This document shows, piece after piece, positions 51,385-62,644 of a stretch of DNA of 64,000 nucleotides. Both the position numbers and the translations under genes were made by a program. The notes below the pieces were generated by a model that saw only the letters and a program-made list of their open reading frames with translations, ran no database searches and had not been told where the DNA came from. Source of the DNA: Bacillota bacterium (GTDB taxonomy: Bacteria; Bacillota; Desulfotomaculia; Desulfotomaculales; Desulforudaceae). How positions within the stretch are numbered: the stretch's first letter is position 1; the number at the start of each line of letters is the position of its first letter. The stretch lies in the NCBI GenBank assembly GCA_040757205.1, contig JBFLXL010000002.1, forward strand, positions 1 to 64,000. Reading direction: 5' to 3'.

Positions 51385-51887
51385 TTTCTGCCTGGCGTGC
51401 ATGTAATACCCGGCACAAAAAAAATACCCCTTCAGGCAGGAATAATCAAAAACACCACGAAGTCTGTTCAAGTGAGTTATCATATCGCATCTGGCGCACA
51501 GACCCGTTTTGGGGAATGTGTCCAGCCTCTGGTGCCTTCCACCGCCGGTGGCCTTCGTTGTTGGGGGAACTGGGTGGGTTTTGGTGCCTTTTTGCCGAAA
51601 TCTTTGGCTGACTCAAAATCTAGTTATCCAGTTCGAAGGGGGGCAGTGAAGCGCTTCGGAAGAAAGCGCCATGCGGCATTCACCCGGATGGCGTTAGAAA
51701 GGGCGCCACTGGTCTCCCGTTGTGGAGTTGAGTGCAGTAAAAGCCGGGCAAAAAGGGACTTTCCATAAGTAGGTTCACACGGTTGTGGCAAGCGTTGAAT
51801 TGTTGTTCTGGAGGGGGGTGCAACCGAACCGATTTTGGCGCTTCCTGGGACCATTCTCGACGAGTACTTATCAAGGAGGTATTAAGT
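51385..51887. other. 500-base intergenic region upstream of dsrA
   Basis: No gene is supported. The sequence includes short inverted words around GCGCTTCGGAAGAAAGCGCC (51651-51671), but no convincing riboswitch motif and no clear housekeeping promoter. It ends with AAGGAGGT before dsrA. Confidence 0.45.
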
Positions 51888-53309
51888 ATGGCTTTTGAGC
51901 CGAAACGGCCACAGAAAACGTACACCTATGATGACGTGCGCCTCTTCACCGACGAAGAACTGAAGAACTACACGGCGGAAGAAGAGAAGAATTTTAAGAT
52001 AAAGCACGACATCCCGTTGCTGGAAAAGCTGGAAAGCGGCCCGTGGCCCAGCTTCGTGGCGGACGCCAAGCGCTATGCGCTTCGCCGGCGCAAGCTTGGT
52101 GAAGAGGGCAAGCTCCTGATCAGCCCGGACGTGGTTGAGGACCTGCTCGGCCAGGTGGAGTTGTCCTTTGTACATGGTGAGACGCACTGGAAGCACGGCG
52201 GCATCGTCGGCGTGATCGGTTACGGCGGCGGCGTCATCGGCCGCTATTCCGACCTGGCGGCGAAATATCCGGGCGTGGCGCACTTCCATACCGTTCGCGT
52301 CGCCCAGGTGCCCAGCAAGTTCTACAACACCGCTTTCCTGCGCGGCCTCGCCGACCTCTGGGAGTACCGCGGCAGCGGCATGCTCAACCTGCACGGCTCC
52401 ACCGGCGACATCATCCTCCTCGGCACCTTCACCGAGCAGTTGGAGCCCCTCTTCCAGGAACTTACCCAGGTCCTGGACGTGGACCTCGGCGGCTCCGGCT
52501 CCAACCTGCGCACGCCGGAGTGCTGTCTGGGCAAGGCCCGTTGCCAGTACGCCCTGTACGACACCCAGGAAATGTGCTACGAAATGACCATGCACTACCA
52601 GGACGAACTGCACCGGCCGGCCTTCCCGTACAAGTTCAAGTTCAAGTTCGACGGCTGCCCGAACGGTTGCGTGGCCTCCATCGCCCGCGCGGACCTCTCC
52701 TTCATCGGCACCTGGTGTGACGACATCCGGATCGACCAGGACGCGGTGCAGGGCTACATCAACGGCGAGTTCCCGCCCGGCGGCGGCAGCCACTCCGGCA
52801 AAGACTGGGGCAAGTTCGACATCTACGCGGAGGTCATCGACCGCTGCCCGACCGGCTGTATGTCCCTGGAAGGCGGCGAACTGGTGATCGACAACCCGAA
52901 CTGCACCCGGTGCATGCACTGCATCAACACCATGCCGCGGGCGCTCAGACCCGGCGTCGAGACCGGCGTCAGCTTGCTGTTCGGCGCCAAGGCGCCGATC
53001 CTGGAAGGCGCGCAGATGTCGGTGCTGGTGATCCCCTTCATGAAGGCGGAGCCCCCGTACGACAACGTCAAGGAAATGATCAACAAGATGTTCGAGTGGT
53101 GGATGGACGAGGGCAAGAATCGCGAGCGTCTCGGTGAAACCATCCAGCGCGTCGGCCTGCAGCGTTTCTGCGACATCATGGGCTTGCCGCCCGCGCCGCA
53201 GATGGTGAAGGAGCCGCGGACCAACCCGTACATTTTCTGGAAGGAAGAAGACGTGCCGGGCGGCTTCGAGCGCGATATCAACGACTACCGGTCCAGACAC
53301 GCAAGATAG
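51888..53309 (+). CDS. dsrA: Dissimilatory sulfite reductase alpha subunit
   Basis: It reduces sulfite with DsrB. The 473-residue protein has siroheme/[4Fe-4S]-binding cysteines in CCLGKARC and GCPNGC (about 210-260), and an inserted ferredoxin domain with CPTGCM and CTRCMHCINTMPRAL (about 320-355). ATG at 51888 has AAGGAGGT 9 bases upstream. It is followed by dsrB after 12 bases. Diagnostic of sulfite/sulfate respiration. Confidence 0.98.
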   Translation: MAFEPKRPQKTYTYDDVRLFTDEELKNYTAEEEKNFKIKHDIPLLEKLESGPWPSFVADAKRYALRRRKLGEEGKLLISPDVVEDLLGQVELSFVHGETHWKHGGIVGVIGYGGGVIGRYSDLAAKYPGVAHFHTVRVAQVPSKFYNTAFLRGLADLWEYRGSGMLNLHGSTGDIILLGTFTEQLEPLFQELTQVLDVDLGGSGSNLRTPECCLGKARCQYALYDTQEMCYEMTMHYQDELHRPAFPYKFKFKFDGCPNGCVASIARADLSFIGTWCDDIRIDQDAVQGYINGEFPPGGGSHSGKDWGKFDIYAEVIDRCPTGCMSLEGGELVIDNPNCTRCMHCINTMPRALRPGVETGVSLLFGAKAPILEGAQMSVLVIPFMKAEPPYDNVKEMINKMFEWWMDEGKNRERLGETIQRVGLQRFCDIMGLPPAPQMVKEPRTNPYIFWKEEDVPGGFERDINDYRSRHAR

Positions 53310-53321
53310 GAGGTTTGAAGG

Positions 53322-54512
53322 ATGGCGTTATCTAAAGACAGACTCGGCAGGTTCAACCCGGACAAACACATGGAAGGCCGGGTGACGGACATCGGCCCGC
53401 GTCACTACTGGCAGTTCTTCCCGCCCGTAATTCAGAACAACTACGGCAAGTGGGCCTACCACGAAATCCTGGAGCCGGGCGTGCTGGTACACGTGTCCGA
53501 GACCGGCGACAAGGCGTTCACCGTTCGGTGCGGCGGCATGCGGTTCATGACCGTCGACTTTGTGCGGGAGCTGTGCGACATCGCCGATCGGTTCTCCGAC
53601 GGCTATGTGCGTTTCACCACCCGCAACAATATCGAATTTATCGTAGACAGCCTGGAAAAGGTCGAGGCCCTGAAGGCGGAACTCGCCAAGCACACCTTCG
53701 CCATCGGCGGCAGCCTCAAATTCCCGGTGGGCGGGACGGGTGCGGGCGTGACCAACATCGTCCACACCCAGGGCTTCATCCACTGCCACACGGCGGCCGT
53801 GGACGCCTCCTCCATGGTGAAGGCGCTCATGGACGGACTGTTTGAGCACTTCACCTCGATGGACCTGCCGGCCCAGGTCCGGGTTTCCATGGCCTGCTGC
53901 CTGAACATGTGCGGCGCCGTACACTGCTCGGACATCGCGCTTCTCGGCTACCACCGCAAGCCCCCGGCTATCGACCACGAAGTCTTGCACAAGATCTGCG
54001 AGATTCCGCTGGCCATCGCCTCCTGCCCGACGGCGGCCATTTCCCCCGCCAAGACCGAGGACGGCCTGAAGACGGTCAAGCTCAAGGTGGAACGGTGCAT
54101 GTTCTGCGGCAACTGCTACACCATGTGTCCGGCGCTGCCGCTGGCGGACGGCCAAGGCGACTGCGTGGTCATGATGGCGGGCGGCAAGGTGTCCAACCGG
54201 ATCAGTATGCCCACGTTCTCCAAGGTCGTTATCCCGTACCTGCCGAACAACCACCCCCTGTTCCCGGAAGTGGTGGAGGCGACGAAACAGGTGCTGAACG
54301 CGTACGCGGCCGACGCCCGCAAGTACGAGCGCATCGGCGACTGGGCCCAGCGGATCGGCTGGGAGAAGTTCTTCGAGAAGTGCAACCTGCCCTTCACGGA
54401 GCACCTGATCGACGATTACCGGCTGGCGTACGACACCTACCGCACCAGCACGCAGTTCAAGTACACCGAGGCGGCGTGGGCGGTTACCAGGGCGGCCGAA
54501 GGAGAAGAATAG
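53322..54512 (+). CDS. dsrB: Dissimilatory sulfite reductase beta subunit
   Basis: Catalytic partner of Dsr[21 protein letters not shown] (about 188-207) supplies siroheme-[4Fe-4S] ligands, and the ferredoxin insert has [18 protein letters not shown] (about 247-264). The [10 protein letters not shown] segment is a substrate/siroheme arginine region of the sulfite reductase repeat. 396 residues, start with AGGAGG. Confidence 0.98.
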
Positions 54513-54541: not shown

Positions 54542-54775
54542 ATGGACGACCTTAAGCAAGCGATCGTGGAGTACTTGCAGAGCGGAAAGACCAAGACGAA
54601 GTTTTACTTCAACGAAATCGACAAGGCCGTTAAGGACAAGATTCCGAGCGCCAAAACCCTGCAAGTCAAAAAGGCCTGCTCGGCCCTGATCAATGAGGGT
54701 GTGCTGGAGTACTATTCCACCGGCAGCACCACATTGTACGGGCTGAAAGGCGCTGGTATCCGGTCGGAGGGTTAA
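54542..54775 (+). CDS. dsrD: DsrD, activator of sulfite reductase
   Basis: The 77-residue winged-helix protein begins MDDLKQAIVEYLQSGKTKTK. DsrD has been shown to stimulate DsrAB activity; it marks reductive rather than oxidative dsr systems. It directly follows dsrB, the usual dsrABD order. Confidence 0.95.
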   Translation: MDDLKQAIVEYLQSGKTKTKFYFNEIDKAVKDKIPSAKTLQVKKACSALINEGVLEYYSTGSTTLYGLKGAGIRSEG

Positions 54776-54809
54776 GGCCGGCGGACATTTTTGAAGCTAG
54801 GGTGAAGAG

Positions 54810-54846
54810 AGAGGCTGCCCCGGAGCTGCGGGCGGCCTCTTTCCCT
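54810..54846 (+). terminator. Attenuator-like hairpin after dsrD
   Basis: AGAGGCTGCCC pairs with GGGCGGCCTCT (one G-T pair) and is followed by TTTCCC. The T-run is short, so readthrough into the downstream TPR gene is likely. Confidence 0.6.
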
Positions 54847-54872
54847 GCCGTTGCGTAAAGGAGGTGAGGCGG

Positions 54873-55502
54873 ATGCCGCGAGAACCGCAAGGTTCCGAAG
54901 AATTCATCGCCGAGCAAAAGCGGATCCTGAAACAACACGAGGAGTGCGCCACCGCCGCCTACAACCTGGGGGTGGCGATGATGCAGCAGAACCGGCTTGC
55001 TGAGGCCCGGGAACACTTCGAGAAGGCGATCGAGACGGGCAGCCGGATGTTCGAAGCCTACGTCAACCTCGGTTACATCCACTTTAAAGAGGGCGACGTG
55101 GAAATGGTGGCCGAAGTCAACCGGAAGGCCGTGGAACTGGAGCCGCGCTACGCCCGTGGTTACGCGAACCTGGGCTTCGCTTATCTTCAAATGGCCCGGA
55201 CCGGTGAGGCGATCGAGGCCCTGGAAAAAGCGCTGGCACTCAACCCGGAGATCGTTCAGGCCTGGAACAACCTGGCCAACGCCCACCTGCAGCAGGGCGA
55301 CGCGGACAAGGCGATCGAAGCCGGCGAAAGGTTGGTGGCCCTTGCTCCGGACTTCGGTCTGGGACACAACAATCTGGCCGTGGCCTATTACCATAAGGGG
55401 AATTTCCCCAAGGCGCTCGAGCATGCCGATATCGCCGCGGGCCAGGGCTTCGCGCTGCACCCGGAGTTCGTGAAGATACTCGATACCTATCGCCAAGAGT
55501 AA
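54873..55502 (+). CDS. TPR protein of the dsr locus
   Basis: The 209-residue soluble protein has five TPR units in order (AAYNLGVAMMQQNRLAEARE; AYVNLGYIHFKEGDVEMVAE; GYANLGFAYLQMARTGEAIE; AWNNLANAHLQQGDADKAIE; GHNNLAVAYYHKGNFPKALE). ATG 54873 has AAGGAGGT 8 bases upstream; an earlier start at 54864 overlaps that Shine-Dalgarno. Such repeats bind partner proteins. Its place between dsrD and the YkgJ gene suggests a role in sulfite reduction or assembly; no direct evidence. Confidence 0.85.
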   Translation: MPREPQGSEEFIAEQKRILKQHEECATAAYNLGVAMMQQNRLAEAREHFEKAIETGSRMFEAYVNLGYIHFKEGDVEMVAEVNRKAVELEPRYARGYANLGFAYLQMARTGEAIEALEKALALNPEIVQAWNNLANAHLQQGDADKAIEAGERLVALAPDFGLGHNNLAVAYYHKGNFPKALEHADIAAGQGFALHPEFVKILDTYRQE

Positions 55503-55514
55503 AGGAAGAACACC

Positions 55515-56132
55515 ATGCCGGAAGAATTGTTCCGCGAATACGAGCAGCTGGTGGCGGGTGCGGACGCGGCGTTTCAGAAAATGGAGCGCGAGCACGGCGA
55601 GCGGATCCGTTGCGCCAGGCACTGCGTGGATTGCTGTCACGCCATTTTTGGCCTGTTCCTGATCGAGTCCGTCTATCTGAAGCAGCTTTTCGAGGAACTG
55701 GGGCCGAACGAGAAAGCGGCCGTACTTGTGCGGGCGGACAAGGCGGACAAGGCGCTGGCGGCGCTGGAGAAAAGCCTCAAGGAGCAGGACGACCCGCACT
55801 TGCAGTCCTACGCGCTGGCCCGGGAGAAAATCCGCTGTCCGCTGTTGGACGACCGGGACGAATGTGTGCTCTACCCCTTCAGGCCCATCACCTGCCGTGT
55901 GTACGGCATCCCGACGATGATCGGCGGCGGGGCTTTTGTCTGCGGCCAAGCCGGGTTCGAAGAGGGGCAGTCCTATCCGGCCTTCGATCTTGACGCCGTC
56001 TACCGGAGCCTGCACCAACTGTCGAAGGAGCTTCTGGCCAGGACCGGGGAGACAGACCTGGAGCGGGCGGACTTGTTGGTGTCCGTGTCCAAGACCTTGA
56101 AATCTTCCCTGGAAGAGCTGATCAAGCTTTAG
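55515..56132 (+). CDS. YkgJ-type cysteine-cluster protein
   Basis: The 205-residue protein has CARHCVDCCHAIFGLF, then REKIRCPLLDDRDECVLYPF and RPITCRVYGIPTMIGGGAFVCG, the CxxxCxxCC...C...C pattern of the YkgJ/UPF0153 family, likely a metal or Fe-S cluster site. Functional role unknown. It is 12 bases after the TPR gene and likely cotranscribed with it. Confidence 0.85.
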   Translation: MPEELFREYEQLVAGADAAFQKMEREHGERIRCARHCVDCCHAIFGLFLIESVYLKQLFEELGPNEKAAVLVRADKADKALAALEKSLKEQDDPHLQSYALAREKIRCPLLDDRDECVLYPFRPITCRVYGIPTMIGGGAFVCGQAGFEEGQSYPAFDLDAVYRSLHQLSKELLARTGETDLERADLLVSVSKTLKSSLEELIKL

Positions 56133-56137
56133 GGAAT

Positions 56138-56188
56138 AGAATTCAGAATTCAGGAGCCAGAATTCAGAATTCAGGAGTCAGGAGTCAG
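56138..56188. repeat. Tandem AGAATTCAG repeats
   Basis: Repeated AGAATTCAGAATTCAGGAG units followed by two GGAGTCA words. Related words appear on the opposite strand at 56320-56425 and at 48363-48395. Confidence 0.8.
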
Positions 56189-56255
56189 AAGGAGGGGACA
56201 GAGAACCGGGGCTGGAACCGCATAAAAGCCCCGGCCTGCTTGTTTCTCCTACTGG

Positions 56256-56284: not shown

Positions 56285-56425
56285 GTGTTGTATGTGGTGC
56301 CGCGCGGCGGCCACGGTTGTCTCATTCTGGATTCTGAATTCCGGCTTCTGAATTTTCATGTTGTGTGAGGCCGTGTGGCGGCCTGCTTTCTCTCATTCTG
56401 GATACTGAATTCTGGATTCTGCATT
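56285..56425. repeat. Two-unit dispersed repeat overlapping a gene 3' end
   Basis: Two units of about 70 bases share TTGT, TGTGG or TGTGTG words, CTCATTCTGGAT and CTGAATTC (56285-56358 and 56360-56425). The second unit is read as the C-terminus of the HEAT-repeat protein. Confidence 0.65.
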
Positions 56426-57588
56426 GGATCCCGGTTTCCGGCTTCCATATTTTCCAGGGCCTCCGCGGCCAGCCGGCCGACCGTCTTTGGCACGATTGCT
56501 CCGTCCTCGTGGAACCAAACCGTCTCATCCCGGCCGGTGATTGCCGCCAGGCCGGGTCTCGCTTCGGGGGCGGCCAAACGGCCGAGCACCCACGCCGTGC
56601 AACCACAGGTCTCCGGGTTGGGGTCCTGAAGGAAAGACAAAAGACGCGGGATAGTCCAGCGGATTAAATCCGGCCGGACCCGGGCGACGGTACCTATGCT
56701 CCTAACGGCTTGCGGCCGAAGGCCTTCGTCCTGCAAGAACTGGTACAAAACCGGGATGTAGCCGCCAAAAACTCTGGGCGCGCCGGCGATGATTTCACCG
56801 ATCGCCTCCAGGGCGCCCCAGTTCGACGCGGCGGAATACTGAAACGAGTTGGCCAGTTCGTGGAGCAGGTTGGCGACCGGGGCCGGGTCTTCCGCGGCGA
56901 TCACGGCGCAAACCCGGCCCAGGGTCTCGGTCACCCGGAAACGGAAAAGCCGGTCCCCTGAGCACAGGAGACGCTGCAGGTGCCGCAGGACCTTCTTGTC
57001 CTGCGCGGCGGCGGCCTCCAGGAGCGGGCCGATGCGGTTTTCACCTATCAGCTCTTCAACCTGTTTTTTGGTCAGCAGGCTTTTGCGGATGGCGGGAACC
57101 TTGGCGGCGGCCCGAACGAACGGTTCGGGCTCCGACAGGAGCAGTTTCCTTGCTGCTCCTTCACCGGTCACTTCACGGATGTCCCGGTGGAGGCGTACAA
57201 AGTACAGGGCGCCGGCGATCCTCCGCCCTTCGTAGGCACCCCCGGGCACAATATAGTGCGATTCGGCGTCGTATCTTTCAAGGATCTTGTCCGTGTAGTC
57301 CTCTCCGGACGCCAGGTCCGAGGCCAGCTCCCAATCCATGTCACAGGCCAGGACCAGCGCTTCCAGAAAGGCCGTCCCCAGGTTGTGTCCCGTAATGTCA
57401 AATATGTACACCGCGCCGCAGGCGCAAGCGCCCGCGGGCATCTCTCCGGGCCGGCGGGTCTTCAACTCGCGCGGCCGGTCAACGGCCAGCCCGCAAAAGG
57501 GGCAGGACACTTTTTTGACCGGTTCTTTGCCCAAGCTCACGTTGACCACGGCCTTACCTGGTCGGTCCCGGTAATTCCAGGGTGGCAC
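56356..57588 (-). CDS. DVU0298-like HEAT-repeat protein with zinc ribbon
   Basis: The 410-residue protein has an N-terminal CPFCG ... CACG zinc-ribbon-like segment (about 28-58), a middle domain (about 60-140), and HEAT-like helical repeats (about 165-385, e.g. RHLQRLLCSGDRLFRFRVTE; WGALEAIGEIIAGAPRVFGG; TCGCTAWVLGRLAAPEARPG). It resembles the family named after Desulfovibrio DVU0298, found in sulfate reducers. The final about 25 residues (starting NRDPMQNPEFSIQNER) come from repeat DNA. GTG 57588 overlaps the zinc-ribbon gene; GTG 57540 is another possible start. Confidence 0.7.
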   Translation of the reverse strand: MPPWNYRDRPGKAVVNVSLGKEPVKKVSCPFCGLAVDRPRELKTRRPGEMPAGACACGAVYIFDITGHNLGTAFLEALVLACDMDWELASDLASGEDYTDKILERYDAESHYIVPGGAYEGRRIAGALYFVRLHRDIREVTGEGAARKLLLSEPEPFVRAAAKVPAIRKSLLTKKQVEELIGENRIGPLLEAAAAQDKKVLRHLQRLLCSGDRLFRFRVTETLGRVCAVIAAEDPAPVANLLHELANSFQYSAASNWGALEAIGEIIAGAPRVFGGYIPVLYQFLQDEGLRPQAVRSIGTVARVRPDLIRWTIPRLLSFLQDPNPETCGCTAWVLGRLAAPEARPGLAAITGRDETVWFHEDGAIVPKTVGRLAAEALENMEAGNRDPMQNPEFSIQNERKQAATRPHTT

Positions 57589-57799
57589 AAGTGTTCCCCG
57601 AACTGCACGACTTGGTCGTGATCTTTGGTTTTTGCGGCTTACCGGAACCCATTACGTAATTGGTGCTGCTGATCACGCGCTCGAACGATTCCGAACGGCA
57701 TTGGGGACAGGCGATTTCCACCTTTTCGTCCGAATTGCGGAAGAGCTGCTCAAAAAGGTGGCCGCACTCCAGGCAGCGAAACTCGAATACAGGCACCAA
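57554..57799 (-). CDS. FmdB-type zinc ribbon protein
   Basis: The 81-residue protein begins MVPVFEFRCLECGHLFEQLF with paired CxxC motifs (CLECG, CPQCR) of the FmdB/regulatory zinc ribbon family. Its serine/threonine/cysteine tail ends KSCSSGNTCATLELPGPTR. It overlaps the start of the HEAT gene and lies opposite to the dsr genes. Confidence 0.85.
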   Translation of the reverse strand: MVPVFEFRCLECGHLFEQLFRNSDEKVEIACPQCRSESFERVISSTNYVMGSGKPQKPKITTKSCSSGNTCATLELPGPTR

Positions 57800-58189: not shown

Positions 58190-58372
58190 ATGTTCGTGGT
58201 GACCGTTGACCGGGATGTCTGCGACGGTTGCGGAGAATGCACGGAGTCCTGTCCGTCGGAAACCCTCAAACTTATCGATGGAAAGGCGCAGGTGGTAAAC
58301 GACGAGTGTATGGGCTGCGAGACCTGTGTCACCATCTGCCCGACCGGCGCGGTGACGCTGCAAGAGGTGTAG
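58190..58372 (+). CDS. 2[4Fe-4S] ferredoxin
   Basis: The 60-residue protein has CDGCGECTESCPSETLKLI and CMGCETCVTICPTGAVTLQ, two CxxCxxCxxxCP clusters. It lies immediately upstream of dsrM and may carry electrons to or from Dsr enzymes; the partner is inferred from location only. Confidence 0.93.
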   Translation: MFVVTVDRDVCDGCGECTESCPSETLKLIDGKAQVVNDECMGCETCVTICPTGAVTLQEV

Positions 58373-58500: not shown

Positions 58501-59268
58501 GTGAACGTTTTTATCGGTCAGATTCTGCCTTACGTGGCGGTCACCGTGTTTCTGGGCGGCGTGGCCTGGCGGATCTGGCGCTGGATGATCCCGCGGATCG
58601 TGCATAACATCACCTTGTCCCCGTGGCCGAAGAGCTGGTCGGCGGCCATCGTTTGGATGCTTTGGCAACTGGCCACTTTCTGGAACCTCTTAAAGTTTGA
58701 CCGGCCGCTGTGGTTCGGTGCCTGGTTTATGCACATCGCCCTGTTTCTCATGCTGGCGGGGCATGTTCAGGCTTTTTACACCCTGGGGTTGCAGTTCCAC
58801 ATCCTGGTGCCCGGCTTGATCACTCCGGAGCTGAGCCTGTGGATGTCGTTCTGGTTCGGTACCGTCCTGGGTTTGGTCTTCCTGCTGGCGCTGCTGTACC
58901 TGCTGGGGCGGCGCCTGGTCAACGAGCCGGTCCGGGTCATCTCCTCGGCGAGTGATTATGTGCACCTGCTGCTGCTGATCGGCATCGCCACGCTCGGCAA
59001 TATCATGCGCATCTTCCCCGAGTACCACGTGGGTTACGTCCCGGTTCGGGAGTACCTCGCGGGACTTTTCCTTTTCCAGCCGCACCCGATGCCCGACAGC
59101 CTTTTGTTTCTAGCCAAGTTCACGCTGGTAATGATCCTGATGATTATCTTCCCGTTCAGCAAACTGATGCACTCTTTCGGCTTCTTCTGGGAGCGGTGGA
59201 TCGTCAACCGGCCGTTCCATGAACCGGCCCGCGGTCTGCCGGGCGCCGGGGTGCAGCTTCCCAAATAG
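58501..59268 (+). CDS. dsrM: DsrM, membrane cytochrome b subunit of DsrMK
   Basis: The 255-residue membrane protein has five or six hydrophobic helices. Histidines in helices (AWFMHIALFLMLAGH, SDYVHLLLLIGIA) are likely haem b ligands as in nitrate reductase gamma-type proteins. It oxidises menaquinol and passes electrons to DsrK. GTG start after AAGGAGGTG. dsrJOP are absent here, as in Gram-positive sulfate reducers with a minimal DsrMK. Confidence 0.94.
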   Translation: MNVFIGQILPYVAVTVFLGGVAWRIWRWMIPRIVHNITLSPWPKSWSAAIVWMLWQLATFWNLLKFDRPLWFGAWFMHIALFLMLAGHVQAFYTLGLQFHILVPGLITPELSLWMSFWFGTVLGLVFLLALLYLLGRRLVNEPVRVISSASDYVHLLLLIGIATLGNIMRIFPEYHVGYVPVREYLAGLFLFQPHPMPDSLLFLAKFTLVMILMIIFPFSKLMHSFGFFWERWIVNRPFHEPARGLPGAGVQLPK

Positions 59269-59295
59269 GCGTTTGAGAAAGGAGGTGTTCCTTAA

Positions 59296-60681
59296 ATGAG
59301 TGAAGCGAATGGGTTGAGGCAGCCCAAGCGGGCTACCGAAGACCTGTTTTTGAAACTGGGGGTCGTGCCCGTACCAGACGGCGAGAAAGCGGCGGCGGCA
59401 ATCGGGCATCTTGACGAGTTCCGGACCAAGGTACGTTCCTTTGTGATGGCCATGGAGTCGTGCGTCAAGTGCGGCGCCTGTGCCGAGAACTGCCACACCT
59501 ACCTGGGGACGCGGGATCCGAACAACATCCCGGCCGGCCGGGCGGACCTGATCCGTAAAGTCTACAAGCGCCACTTCACCGTGCAGGGGAAACTCTTCCC
59601 CGGTCTGGTGGGCGCCCAGGACCTGGACCTGGAAACTATTGAGAAGTGGTACAGCTACTACTACCAGTGTTCCGAGTGCCGGCGCTGCGCGCACGTCTGC
59701 CCGTTCGGCATCGACACCGCCGAGGTGACGATGATCGGGCGGCAGATCCTGTTTTGGCTGGGCATCGGGCCGCAACTCCACACCGCCACCTCGGGCGCGA
59801 TTTTAAAGACCGGCAACCATATGGGCCTGACCCAGGCCGGGATGATCGACACGCTCGACTTTCTGTCCGAGGAGATCGAAGAGGAGTACGAAGGACTCAA
59901 GGTCACGTTCCCGGTCGACAAGCCCAATTCGGACGTCCTGTACGTCCCGTCCTCGGCGGACTTCATGTTGAACGCCAACACGCTGAAGGGCGCGGCCATG
60001 TTCCTCCAGTACGTCGGCGCCAACTGGACCATCTCCAGCCGGATCACCGAGGCCGGTAACTTCGGCTACCTGATGGACCAGAACCGCATCATGCGGGAGA
60101 TGGTGACCAGGCTGATGGAGGAAACCACCCGCCTGGGCTGCAAGAAGATCGTCTGGGGCGAGTGCGGCCACGGCTGGCGGGCGACCAAGATGTACGTGCC
60201 GACAATGTCCGACATGCCGGCTTCCAGAAGGGTCCCGATGACCCATATCCATGACGAGATTGAGGCTTACGTCAAAGCCGGGCTGCTGGAGCTGGATCCA
60301 AAGCGCAACGCGCGGAAGATTACGCTGCACGATCCGTGCAACTACGCACGGGCCTGCGGGCACAGCGACAACATGCGCGTGATCATGAACGCGGTGGTGC
60401 CGAAGGGCGCCTTCACGGAAATGAGGCCCAACCGGGAGGCCAACTTCTGTTGCGGCGGCGGTTCCGGAATCCTGTTTGACGATAAGAAGATGTACGAATA
60501 CCGGATCTTGGCCTCCAACAAGAAGGCCGAACAGGTGCGGGCGACCGATGCGGAGGCCCTGTGCGCGCCGTGTTCCATCTGTAAAGCCCAGCTCTACCCC
60601 ATGGTTAAGGAACACAAGCTACCCGTGGAAGTGGTGGGGCTGGTGGACCTGGTGGGCAACGCGCTGGTATTTCGCGACTAG
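59296..60681 (+). CDS. dsrK: DsrK, heterodisulfide reductase-like Fe-S subunit
   Basis: The 461-residue protein has two [4Fe-4S] motifs (SCVKCGACAENCHTYLG, about 54-70; CSECRRCAHVCPFGID, about 125-140) and two C-terminal CCG-type regions (HDPCNYARACGH, NFCCGGGSG) that bind the noncubane cluster in HdrB/DsrK proteins. It reduces the DsrC trisulfide. Follows dsrM with AAAGGAGGTG. Confidence 0.95.
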   Translation: MSEANGLRQPKRATEDLFLKLGVVPVPDGEKAAAAIGHLDEFRTKVRSFVMAMESCVKCGACAENCHTYLGTRDPNNIPAGRADLIRKVYKRHFTVQGKLFPGLVGAQDLDLETIEKWYSYYYQCSECRRCAHVCPFGIDTAEVTMIGRQILFWLGIGPQLHTATSGAILKTGNHMGLTQAGMIDTLDFLSEEIEEEYEGLKVTFPVDKPNSDVLYVPSSADFMLNANTLKGAAMFLQYVGANWTISSRITEAGNFGYLMDQNRIMREMVTRLMEETTRLGCKKIVWGECGHGWRATKMYVPTMSDMPASRRVPMTHIHDEIEAYVKAGLLELDPKRNARKITLHDPCNYARACGHSDNMRVIMNAVVPKGAFTEMRPNREANFCCGGGSGILFDDKKMYEYRILASNKKAEQVRATDAEALCAPCSICKAQLYPMVKEHKLPVEVVGLVDLVGNALVFRD

Positions 60682-60699: not shown

Positions 60700-60780
60700 T
60701 CGACTGACAAGCCGTTTGGTCCCGGGTACCGGCACTTTAAAAAGGAGTTCAATTTATTTTTTAAGGAGGTGTTTGGACAA

Positions 60781-61098
60781 ATGCCGTTTATCGAGGTTGA
60801 CGGAAAACAGGTGGAAGTCGACGAGGACGGTTTCATGGTCGACCCCGCGGCCTGGTGGCCGGGGTGGGCGCACTATGTGGCCAAATCGGAGGGGATCGGT
60901 GAGCTGACCGAGCGGCACTGGCACGTGATCGAGTTCCTGAAAGATTACTACGCCAAGACCGGTATCGCCCCGATGATCCGCAAGCTCTGCAAGGAAAGCG
61001 GCATCCCCCTGAAGGAGATGTACGAGCTGTTCCCCACGGGCCCCGCGAAAGGCGCCTGCAAATGTGCGGGTCTGCCCAAGCCCACCGGCTGCGTGTAA
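60781..61098 (+). CDS. dsrC: DsrC sulfur-carrier protein
   Basis: The 105-residue protein begins MPFIEVDGKQVEVDEDGFMV. The flexible C-terminal arm GACKCAGLPKPTGCV has the two conserved cysteines (penultimate residue, and 10 residues before) that form the trisulfide. ATG 60781 has AAGGAGGTG 9 bases upstream. It follows dsrMK directly, placing sulfur carrier and its reductase together. Confidence 0.97.
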   Translation: MPFIEVDGKQVEVDEDGFMVDPAAWWPGWAHYVAKSEGIGELTERHWHVIEFLKDYYAKTGIAPMIRKLCKESGIPLKEMYELFPTGPAKGACKCAGLPKPTGCV

Positions 61099-61119
61099 TC
61101 AGCGGCTATTTTGCCAAAG

Positions 61120-61149
61120 CTTAACCCGGGGACCCCACCCCGGGTTAAG
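61120..61149 (+). terminator. Hairpin between dsrC and dsrN
   Basis: CTTAACCCGGGG pairs perfectly with CCCCGGGTTAAG over 12 bp, loop ACCCCA. No T-run follows, so termination may be partial. Confidence 0.65.
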
Positions 61150-61243
61150 CGTGTCTATGAGGGCGGAGTCGAGCGTATCAAATCACCGGGGCAGTCGCCG
61201 GGCCTCCCGTCCCGATTTAGCTGTCTTTGAGGCGGGTGTTGAC

Positions 61244-62644
61244 GTGCAGGTGGAAGGAAGGCCGCGGGTGGTCATTGCCGCGCCGCAGGGCCGGTCGGGA
61301 AAAACAACGGTTACCGCTGCGTTGATCGCCGCCCTGCGTGGGCGGGGGTTGGCGGTTCAGCCGTTCAAAAAGGGTCCCGACTTCATCGACCCGAGCTGGC
61401 TGACGCGGGTGGCCGGCCGAAGTTGCCGCAACCTGGACCGTTTTCTGATGGACGAACCGACCCTGGTTGGTTCGTTCATGCGGGCGACGGCGGAGGCGGA
61501 TATCGCCGTGATTGAAGGGGCGATGGGCCTGTTTGACGGAGTGGACGTGGAGGGAAGCGGCAGCACCGCGGAGATCGCGCACCTTCTGGAAGCGCCGGTC
61601 ATCCTGGTGGTGAACGCGGTGCGGATGACCAGAAGCGCCGCCGCAGTCGTGCTCGGCTGCCAAATGCTCGACCCGCGGGTACACTTGGCCGGCGTGGTGT
61701 TCAACAACGTGGCCCGGCAGCGGCACCGGGACCTGCTGACGGCGTCCGTCGAGCGCTATTGCCGCGTGCCGGTGCTGGGGGCCGTGCCCAAGAACCGGTC
61801 CTATGAAGTGCCTGACCGGCACCTGGGTCTCATTCCCGCCGGCGAGGACGAAAAGCTCTTAAGTGCGGTCCACGCCTGGTCCGCCGACGCCCAGACTTTT
61901 CTGGACGTCGACCGTATCCTGGAAATCGCCCGCGCGGCACCGCCGCTCCCCGTGCCGCCACCGCTCCCGGCCGCCGCGGCGCCAAACGGGGATGAGCCGC
62001 TGATCGCCGTAGTCCGGGACCGGGCTTTCAGCTTTTACTACCCCGAAAACCTGGAGGCCCTGGAACGGGCCGGGGCCCGTCTGGTTTACATTGATGCCCT
62101 GCACGGCACCCTCCCGGAGGTGGATGGGCTTTATGTAGGCGGCGGCTTCCCGGAAGTGTTTGCCGCCGAACTGGAGTCCAATGAGCGCATGCGGGAAGCC
62201 GTCCGCAGGCGGGTCGAGGCCGGGTTGCCCGTTTACGCCGAATGCGGCGGGTTGATGTACTTGGGTAAGAGGCTGGCCTGGAAAGGGAAAAGCTACGCCA
62301 TGACCGGGGCGCTGCCCTTTGAGGTCGACCTGGATGAGCGGCCCCGGGGGCACGGGTACATGATTGTGGATGTCGTGCGGGACAATCCCTACTTCCCGGT
62401 CGGAACCACCATCAGGGGCCATGAGTTCCACCACTCGCGGGTGCACGCCTTGGACACCGGGACCGTCGCCATGGCGTTCAAGGTGCGCAAAGGATACGGC
62501 ATTGACGGCGAGCGGGACGGAATCGTTTACCGGAACGTACTGGCGGCCTACAACCACATCCACGCCTTGTCCGTACCCGGATGGGCGCCGGGGTTCGTGT
62601 TGCGGGCCGCTGCTTACAGGGTGCAGAAGAACAAGGAGGTTTGA
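61244..62644 (+). CDS. dsrN: DsrN, CobB/CbiA-like siroheme amidase
   Basis: This is a glutamine-dependent amidase of the CobB/CbiA family. The DRTBS P-loop is VVIAAPQGRSGKTTVTAALI (about 8-27). The C-terminal class I-like glutaminase domain has PVYAECGGLMYLG with its catalytic cysteine (about 330-342) and HEFHHSRVHAL. In dsr loci this family (DsrN) amidates siroheme to sirohemeamide; outside them it makes cobyrinic acid a,c-diamide. The position after dsrC favours DsrN. GTG 61244 gives 466 residues; ATG 61157 is an upstream alternative. Confidence 0.85.
   Translation: MQVEGRPRVVIAAPQGRSGKTTVTAALIAALRGRGLAVQPFKKGPDFIDPSWLTRVAGRSCRNLDRFLMDEPTLVGSFMRATAEADIAVIEGAMGLFDGVDVEGSGSTAEIAHLLEAPVILVVNAVRMTRSAAAVVLGCQMLDPRVHLAGVVFNNVARQRHRDLLTASVERYCRVPVLGAVPKNRSYEVPDRHLGLIPAGEDEKLLSAVHAWSADAQTFLDVDRILEIARAAPPLPVPPPLPAAAAPNGDEPLIAVVRDRAFSFYYPENLEALERAGARLVYIDALHGTLPEVDGLYVGGGFPEVFAAELESNERMREAVRRRVEAGLPVYAECGGLMYLGKRLAWKGKSYAMTGALPFEVDLDERPRGHGYMIVDVVRDNPYFPVGTTIRGHEFHHSRVHALDTGTVAMAFKVRKGYGIDGERDGIVYRNVLAAYNHIHALSVPGWAPGFVLRAAAYRVQKNKEV

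Follow-up and report, generated by a model that had tools for sequence, protein, structure and literature searches.

Downstream of dsrABD in a 64,000-nucleotide stretch of a Bacillota genome (contig JBFLXL010000002.1; here the window) lies a group of genes that accompanies DsrAB, the enzyme at the centre of microbial sulfate respiration, in one of its evolutionary types. The group encodes a five-repeat TPR protein, a YkgJ-type cysteine-cluster protein, and a HEAT-repeat protein, and in other genomes also a protein with a kinase-like fold. The TPR and HEAT proteins form the core of this module, and the YkgJ-type and kinase-fold proteins are optional. The DsrAB type concerned is the Desulfobacterota-like one, which many Desulfotomaculales carry as well. 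We propose, with a probability of roughly 0.4, that the TPR-YkgJ pair and the HEAT protein constitute an accessory module, made at low abundance, that acts on this type of DsrAB and most likely serves its maturation or assembly; to our knowledge, how the coupled siroheme-[4Fe-4S] centre of DsrAB is installed is not settled. That the gene group has travelled with one DsrAB type across several phyla suggests an overlooked helper system. It provides named candidates for DsrAB assembly or control, serves as a genomic marker of DsrAB type, and shows that the inheritance of dsr clusters has included genes beyond the textbook set.

Comparisons of dsr clusters name DsrD, DsrN, DsrT, DsrV, DsrW, and others, and assign DsrN, DsrV, and DsrW to siroheme modification or synthesis (PMC10504309, PMC6018796). 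These named accessory genes, together with DsrR and DsrS, are likewise encoded in dsr clusters, but none is described in PMC6018796 or PMC10504309 as a TPR, YkgJ, or HEAT protein. The Pfam and NCBIfam matches of the TPR and YkgJ genes include no dsr model, and neither gene matches a curated Dsr family, in agreement with the initial annotation of this DNA, which had placed both outside the described Dsr set. A full-text search of the open-access literature found no description of a TPR-YkgJ-HEAT module. Conserved hypothetical genes near dsr were reportedly noted in a 2005 fosmid study (ws39f7).

Organization of the dsr region

The dsrA gene (51888-53309, + strand; TIGR02064, 548.8 bits), with its start set at 51888 in an open reading frame that opens upstream at 51783, is followed by dsrB (53322-54512, +; TIGR02066, 488.9 bits), which the DsrB tree assigns to the long, Desulfobacterota-like type, and by dsrD (54542-54775, +; PF08679, 94.5 bits). 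Next come a gene for a 209-aa protein with five TPR stretches over the Pfam cut-off (54873-55502, +) and one for a 205-aa YkgJ-type protein with exactly eight cysteines (55515-56132, +; PF03692, 26.0 bits against a 23-bit cut-off), so that both products are of the kinds that the initial annotation had read from the sequence. Convergent with this pair is a gene (56356-57588, − strand; NF045662, 162.9 bits, cut-off 75) for a HEAT-repeat protein of the DVU0298 family with an N-terminal Cys-rich, zinc-ribbon-like region. A small zinc-ribbon gene (57554-57799, −), named FmdB-like from its sequence, stands behind the HEAT gene in most loci. Short degenerate repeats (GAATTCAGAATTCAGGAGTCAGGAGTCAG and its complement) occur at 56138-56195 and 56318-56430, between the YkgJ and HEAT genes.

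Farther along the + strand, a 60-aa two-cluster ferredoxin (58190-58372; Fer4 matches) is encoded upstream of a short form of dsrM (58501-59268; PF02665, 68.3 bits; NF038037, 76.9 bits, below the cut-off of 300), and is followed by dsrK (59296-60681; NF045796, 394.8 bits, cut-off 400), dsrC (60769-61098; PF04358, 131.9 bits), and a cbiA/dsrN-like amidase gene (61064-62644; NF002204, 466 bits), the 5′ end of which is uncertain and overlaps dsrC. The scores of DsrM and DsrK (58501-60681) below the NCBI cut-offs for DsrMKJOP-type subunits, together with dsrC directly 3′, suggest a two-subunit DsrMK form.

A conserved hairpin between dsrD and the TPR gene

The TPR and YkgJ genes are separated by 12 nt, and dsrD and the TPR gene by 97 nt that contain a strong RNA hairpin (54803-54847, +; −30 kcal/mol), a putative attenuator, weak terminator, or 3′ stabiliser. 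The hairpin is present in nearly all of about 75 long-type loci and was not found in the other-type dsrAB loci searched. An alignment of 48 sequences has 14 pairs with 94% of cells standard-paired, and ten of the 14 have changed on both sides (51 cells), which neither any of 500 shuffles nor slid controls reach. A covariance model has a single match in the genome, at 54803-54847 of the window (E 5.7e-6; the next has E 0.2), and no Rfam family matches there at E up to 5. Where the TPR gene has moved off (loci L101, L105, and L091) the hairpin stays behind dsrD.

The stem is GC-rich and kept by compensatory changes, as in an intrinsic terminator; the sequence after it in the window, TTTCCC, falls short of the strong U-tract of such terminators. 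A terminator scan of the window omits the hairpin because this U-tract (CTCTTTCCC) is weak, and in many Desulfobacterota loci the U-runs after the hairpin are longer. In 35 of 51 loci fewer than 45 nt separate the 3′ end of the hairpin from the start codon of the TPR gene, which is not enough to fit both a standard promoter and a ribosome site. The simplest reading is that of a leaky terminator or 3′ stabiliser, with which dsrABD mRNA would be abundant and a fraction of polymerases would enter TPR-YkgJ. The TPR and YkgJ genes thus probably share one transcript, fed by attenuated read-through from dsrABD. The initial annotation had the pair cotranscribed with dsrABD; the conserved hairpin makes this doubtful rather than established, and plain dsrABD-TPR-YkgJ cotranscription is not accepted. 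The hairpin and the convergent HEAT/zinc-ribbon gene are both additions to the locus as first described.

Co-occurrence with dsrAB in Desulfotomaculales

We compared 60 Desulfotomaculales genomes, 48 with dsrB over cut-off (34 of the long type and 14 of the other type) and 12 without dsrB. In a profile search, the TPR gene was found in all 34 long-type genomes, in none of the 14 other-type genomes, and in none of the 12 lacking dsrB; scores in the 34 genomes are 340-397 bits, with no intermediate scores and no further match beyond E 1e-25. A YkgJ orthologue matches strongly (170-453 bits) in 27 of the 60 genomes, and all other matches are below 33 bits. All 27 have dsrB and belong to the 34 TPR genomes; in 26 of them YkgJ follows dsrB at a distance of 1.0-1.5 kb and in the same orientation, and the one remaining genome has it ahead of dsrA within the dsr locus. 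The association of TPR and YkgJ with dsrAB is far beyond chance. The HEAT (DVU0298) family, present in 46 of the 48 genomes with dsrB and in none of the 12 without, tracks dsrAB more tightly than YkgJ does.

Because the module tracks the DsrAB type among genomes of a single order, DsrAB is indicated as its client; since TPR and YkgJ are absent with the other DsrAB type in that order, their cargo is most simply DsrAB or something specific to the type. The dsr cluster may be inherited en bloc, so that the association with the type fits other partners specific to it as well as it fits DsrAB.

YkgJ was considered as the core of the module and rejected, being absent from G014, G019, G028, G032, G038, G046, and G054, which all keep TPR and HEAT, and also from the genus represented by loci L184 and L185, which retains both. 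Of the TPR-YkgJ module first put forward, the TPR protein therefore stands as core; YkgJ does not, and the other constant member is the convergent HEAT gene.

Distribution in other phyla and DsrB phylogeny

A scan with the YkgJ alignment of one genome per species, covering 84,980 species, gave 343 encoding stretches. Among the best 80 of these 343, the arrangement dsrA-dsrB-dsrD-TPR-YkgJ-(HEAT)-(FmdB) is found in nearly every case in which the contig extends far enough, and the order dsrABD-TPR-YkgJ-HEAT is common to Bacillota, Desulfobacterota, Nitrospirota, and Nitrospinota. Among 247 Desulfobacterota species, YkgJ (>120 bits) is present in 57 of 124 with dsrB and in one of 123 without (Fisher p ~1e-19, relatedness ignored), and 67 species with dsrB have no YkgJ. 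The co-occurrence with dsrAB that had been expected of both genes is thus seen across several phyla; they are neither confined to the window's genome nor equally frequent in organisms without dsr, the two outcomes named beforehand as refuting.

The TPR gene scores at least 120 bits in 86 Desulfobacterota species, 84 of them with dsrB. Some of the Desulfobacterota matches of 108-130 bits may be to generic TPR proteins. In 59 cases the gene is no more than 7 kb from dsrB, placed downstream of it, upstream, or divergently. The HEAT family occurs in 105 of the 124 species with dsrB and in two of the 123 without, and TPR and HEAT genes are at most 3 kb apart in 45 species, in some of them far from dsrB. 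Strong YkgJ matches among 299 Bacillota species number only four, all in Desulfotomaculales; TPR is found in 12 of the 299, six of them from one further genus, in which both loci examined read dsrABD-TPR-HEAT and YkgJ is absent. In genome G104, YkgJ-TPR and HEAT-kinase-fold genes form one cluster 227 kb from dsrB (L176), and that these genes stay together once separated from dsrAB speaks for a functional module. The association has one main exception, the Desulfobacterota genome G273, in which no dsrB was detected; dsrB may be absent from the assembly.

A 100/100 branch divides an IQ-TREE phylogeny of 85 DsrB sequences into the 14 TPR-less sequences and a remainder that contains every TPR or YkgJ carrier, from all four phyla. 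Passage of the long-type dsr cluster from one phylum to another would fit this tree, and such transfer is described in the literature for some Desulfotomaculum lineages. The absence of YkgJ corresponds to about four separate changes among DsrAB-carrying lineages; because YkgJ has been lost about four times while DsrAB stays, it cannot be strictly required for DsrAB.

With a cluster that seems to have moved between phyla, the genes could be passengers that moved as part of the block and serve another anaerobic function, and the retention of YkgJ, TPR, and HEAT in G273 would fit. We regard this as very improbable: the association outlasts rearrangement, the genes being found upstream, downstream, divergent, and far from dsrB, they are absent in genomes without dsrB, and the conservation of the TPR protein equals that of DsrC.

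The YkgJ-type protein

All eight cysteines of the YkgJ-type protein are invariant in the 27 orthologues, in the layout C33-x3-C37-x2-C40-C41, C108 (CPLL), C117, C127 (RPxTCRxYG), and C143. The CxxxCxxCC, CPLL-x5-C, and RPxTCR motifs are shared with the ‘putative zinc- or iron-chelating’ YkgJ-type proteins of PF03692, from which the eighth invariant cysteine, C143, sets the dsr-linked group off; its members are also distinct from other YkgJ-like proteins of the same genomes (170-453 against at most 32 bits). From the motif we infer that the protein binds metal. Its AlphaFold model is confident (pLDDT 90) and has no counterpart among solved folds by Foldseek and VIA-align, the top match being a meaningless Z of 2.1 to a Dps chain; no solved relative came up when PDB sequences were searched with the YkgJ profile, and no NCBIfam family, in a collection that may not include a FliB model, matches at E up to 0.1.

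The flagellin lysine methyltransferase FliB has a CX4CX3CC motif, likened by its authors to PF03692, and eight conserved cysteines with one [4Fe-4S] cluster, required for lysine methylation (PMC8598068). The window protein likewise has eight conserved cysteines, arranged as CX3CX2CC plus four more, and differs from FliB in genomic context. Because FliB shares the motif and holds a [4Fe-4S] cluster, an Fe-S cluster is plausible in the YkgJ-type protein, which by this analogy is probably an Fe-S protein. It is half the length of FliB.

The same resemblance would allow YkgJ to be a compact, FliB-like [4Fe-4S] enzyme that moves a methyl or other group onto DsrA, DsrB, or DsrC presented by the TPR protein. 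The cysteine motifs of the two proteins speak for such a modification. We nevertheless think it improbable, given a protein of only 205 aa with no evidence of a SAM site, the empty NCBIfam search, and the repeated loss of YkgJ where DsrAB is kept.

The TPR, HEAT, and kinase-fold proteins

The TPR protein has Asn at positions 31, 65, 99, 133, and 167, a 34-residue period, and a single invariant cysteine, Cys25. There are 37 invariant columns among 44 sequences, and median identity to the window protein is 60-62% across phyla, similar to that of DsrC and above that of DsrD. As in canonical TPR superhelices (consensus TPR and the OGT TPR domain), the Asn position is the same in all five repeats and the profile match is strong; unlike those, the dsr-linked protein has a constant length of 209 aa and about 37 residues that never vary. 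The repeated Asn belongs to the general TPR consensus, and by itself therefore shows only an intact groove.

The dsr-linked DVU0298 protein is a long form of 370-420 aa with the Cys-rich region at its N-terminus. A short paralogue of ~228 aa (G000:C6:74871-75479) is present in most genomes with dsrB, those of the other DsrAB type included, and DVU0298-family genes taken together follow the distribution of dsrAB almost perfectly.

A kinase-fold protein of 370-385 aa, with an invariant W-H-H-A-A-G-D-F motif region, is encoded between YkgJ and HEAT in Desulfobacterota, Nitrospirota, and Nitrospinota (e.g. L066:9599-10750, −, and 30 or more other loci), and is missing from the window and from most Bacillota loci. 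It has no Pfam or NCBIfam match. Its model (pLDDT 93) has its best VIA-align match, Z 13.1 over 215 residues, to APH(2'')-IVa; eukaryotic kinases, ranked first by Foldseek, were set aside for poor rmsd in favour of this APH-like match.

A partner with a protein-kinase-like fold raises the prospect that TPR and HEAT, with the kinase-fold protein where present, act as a complex that, by signalling or sequestration, adjusts the activity of DsrAB, or of DsrC/DsrMK, to redox or energy state, with YkgJ as an Fe-S redox sensor. TPR and HEAT are interaction scaffolds, YkgJ is dispensable, and, according to PMC10504309, the neighbouring DsrD activates DsrAB allosterically. Against this, the kinase is putative, given its lack of a family match, and its gene is wanting in the window and most Bacillota loci, and we consider regulation rather unlikely as the role of the module. 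We also know of no phosphorylation of Dsr proteins.

A possible route for DsrAB assembly

Assembly or maturation fits best with the low expected stoichiometry, a peptide-gripping TPR protein, a probable Fe-S protein, and a HEAT/zinc-ribbon scaffold. RNA polymerase would pass the hairpin at low efficiency, so that TPR-YkgJ would be made in far smaller amounts than the abundant DsrABD. The superhelix of the TPR protein would grip an extended segment of its client, most likely nascent or apo DsrA or DsrB, and the YkgJ-type protein, as an optional improver, would contribute metal or redox chemistry as cofactors are inserted or the enzyme is assembled. The HEAT protein, in Desulfobacterota also the kinase-fold protein, would scaffold or regulate the process.

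A part for TPR and YkgJ in maturing siroheme-[4Fe-4S] DsrAB, as originally suggested, can fairly be inferred, with siroheme/[4Fe-4S] insertion as the assisted step its least supported part. Since other-type DsrAB does without TPR and YkgJ, and the 67 Desulfobacterota species with dsrB do without YkgJ, the siroheme-[4Fe-4S] centre needs neither in general. In a bolder version, the TPR, HEAT, YkgJ, and kinase-fold proteins would be a dedicated, as yet unnamed assembly line, its output set against that of DsrABD by the conserved RNA attenuator, and would supply what has been lacking for the production of siroheme-loaded DsrAB away from its native hosts; we hold this to be rather unlikely.

Variant loci

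A plasmid search gave nothing informative. Where YkgJ is unlinked from dsrAB, it is followed by a conserved protein of ~118 aa (D118; ‘MSPRRQKHILK..YDxWDPF.EPKDPIDxRKDK’) that has no Pfam family (L137:9675-10034, +; also in L138, L136, L175, and L177), and the order YkgJ-D118-TPR is seen in L175 and L177. The former is the locus of G273, which thus keeps D118 along with YkgJ, TPR, and the DVU0298 family. Genome G015 (L183 / L134; L183 5298-6805) has a second dsrD copy, a YkgJ gene, and a partial HEAT gene upstream of dsrA, an arrangement that looks like what is left of a tandemly duplicated module.
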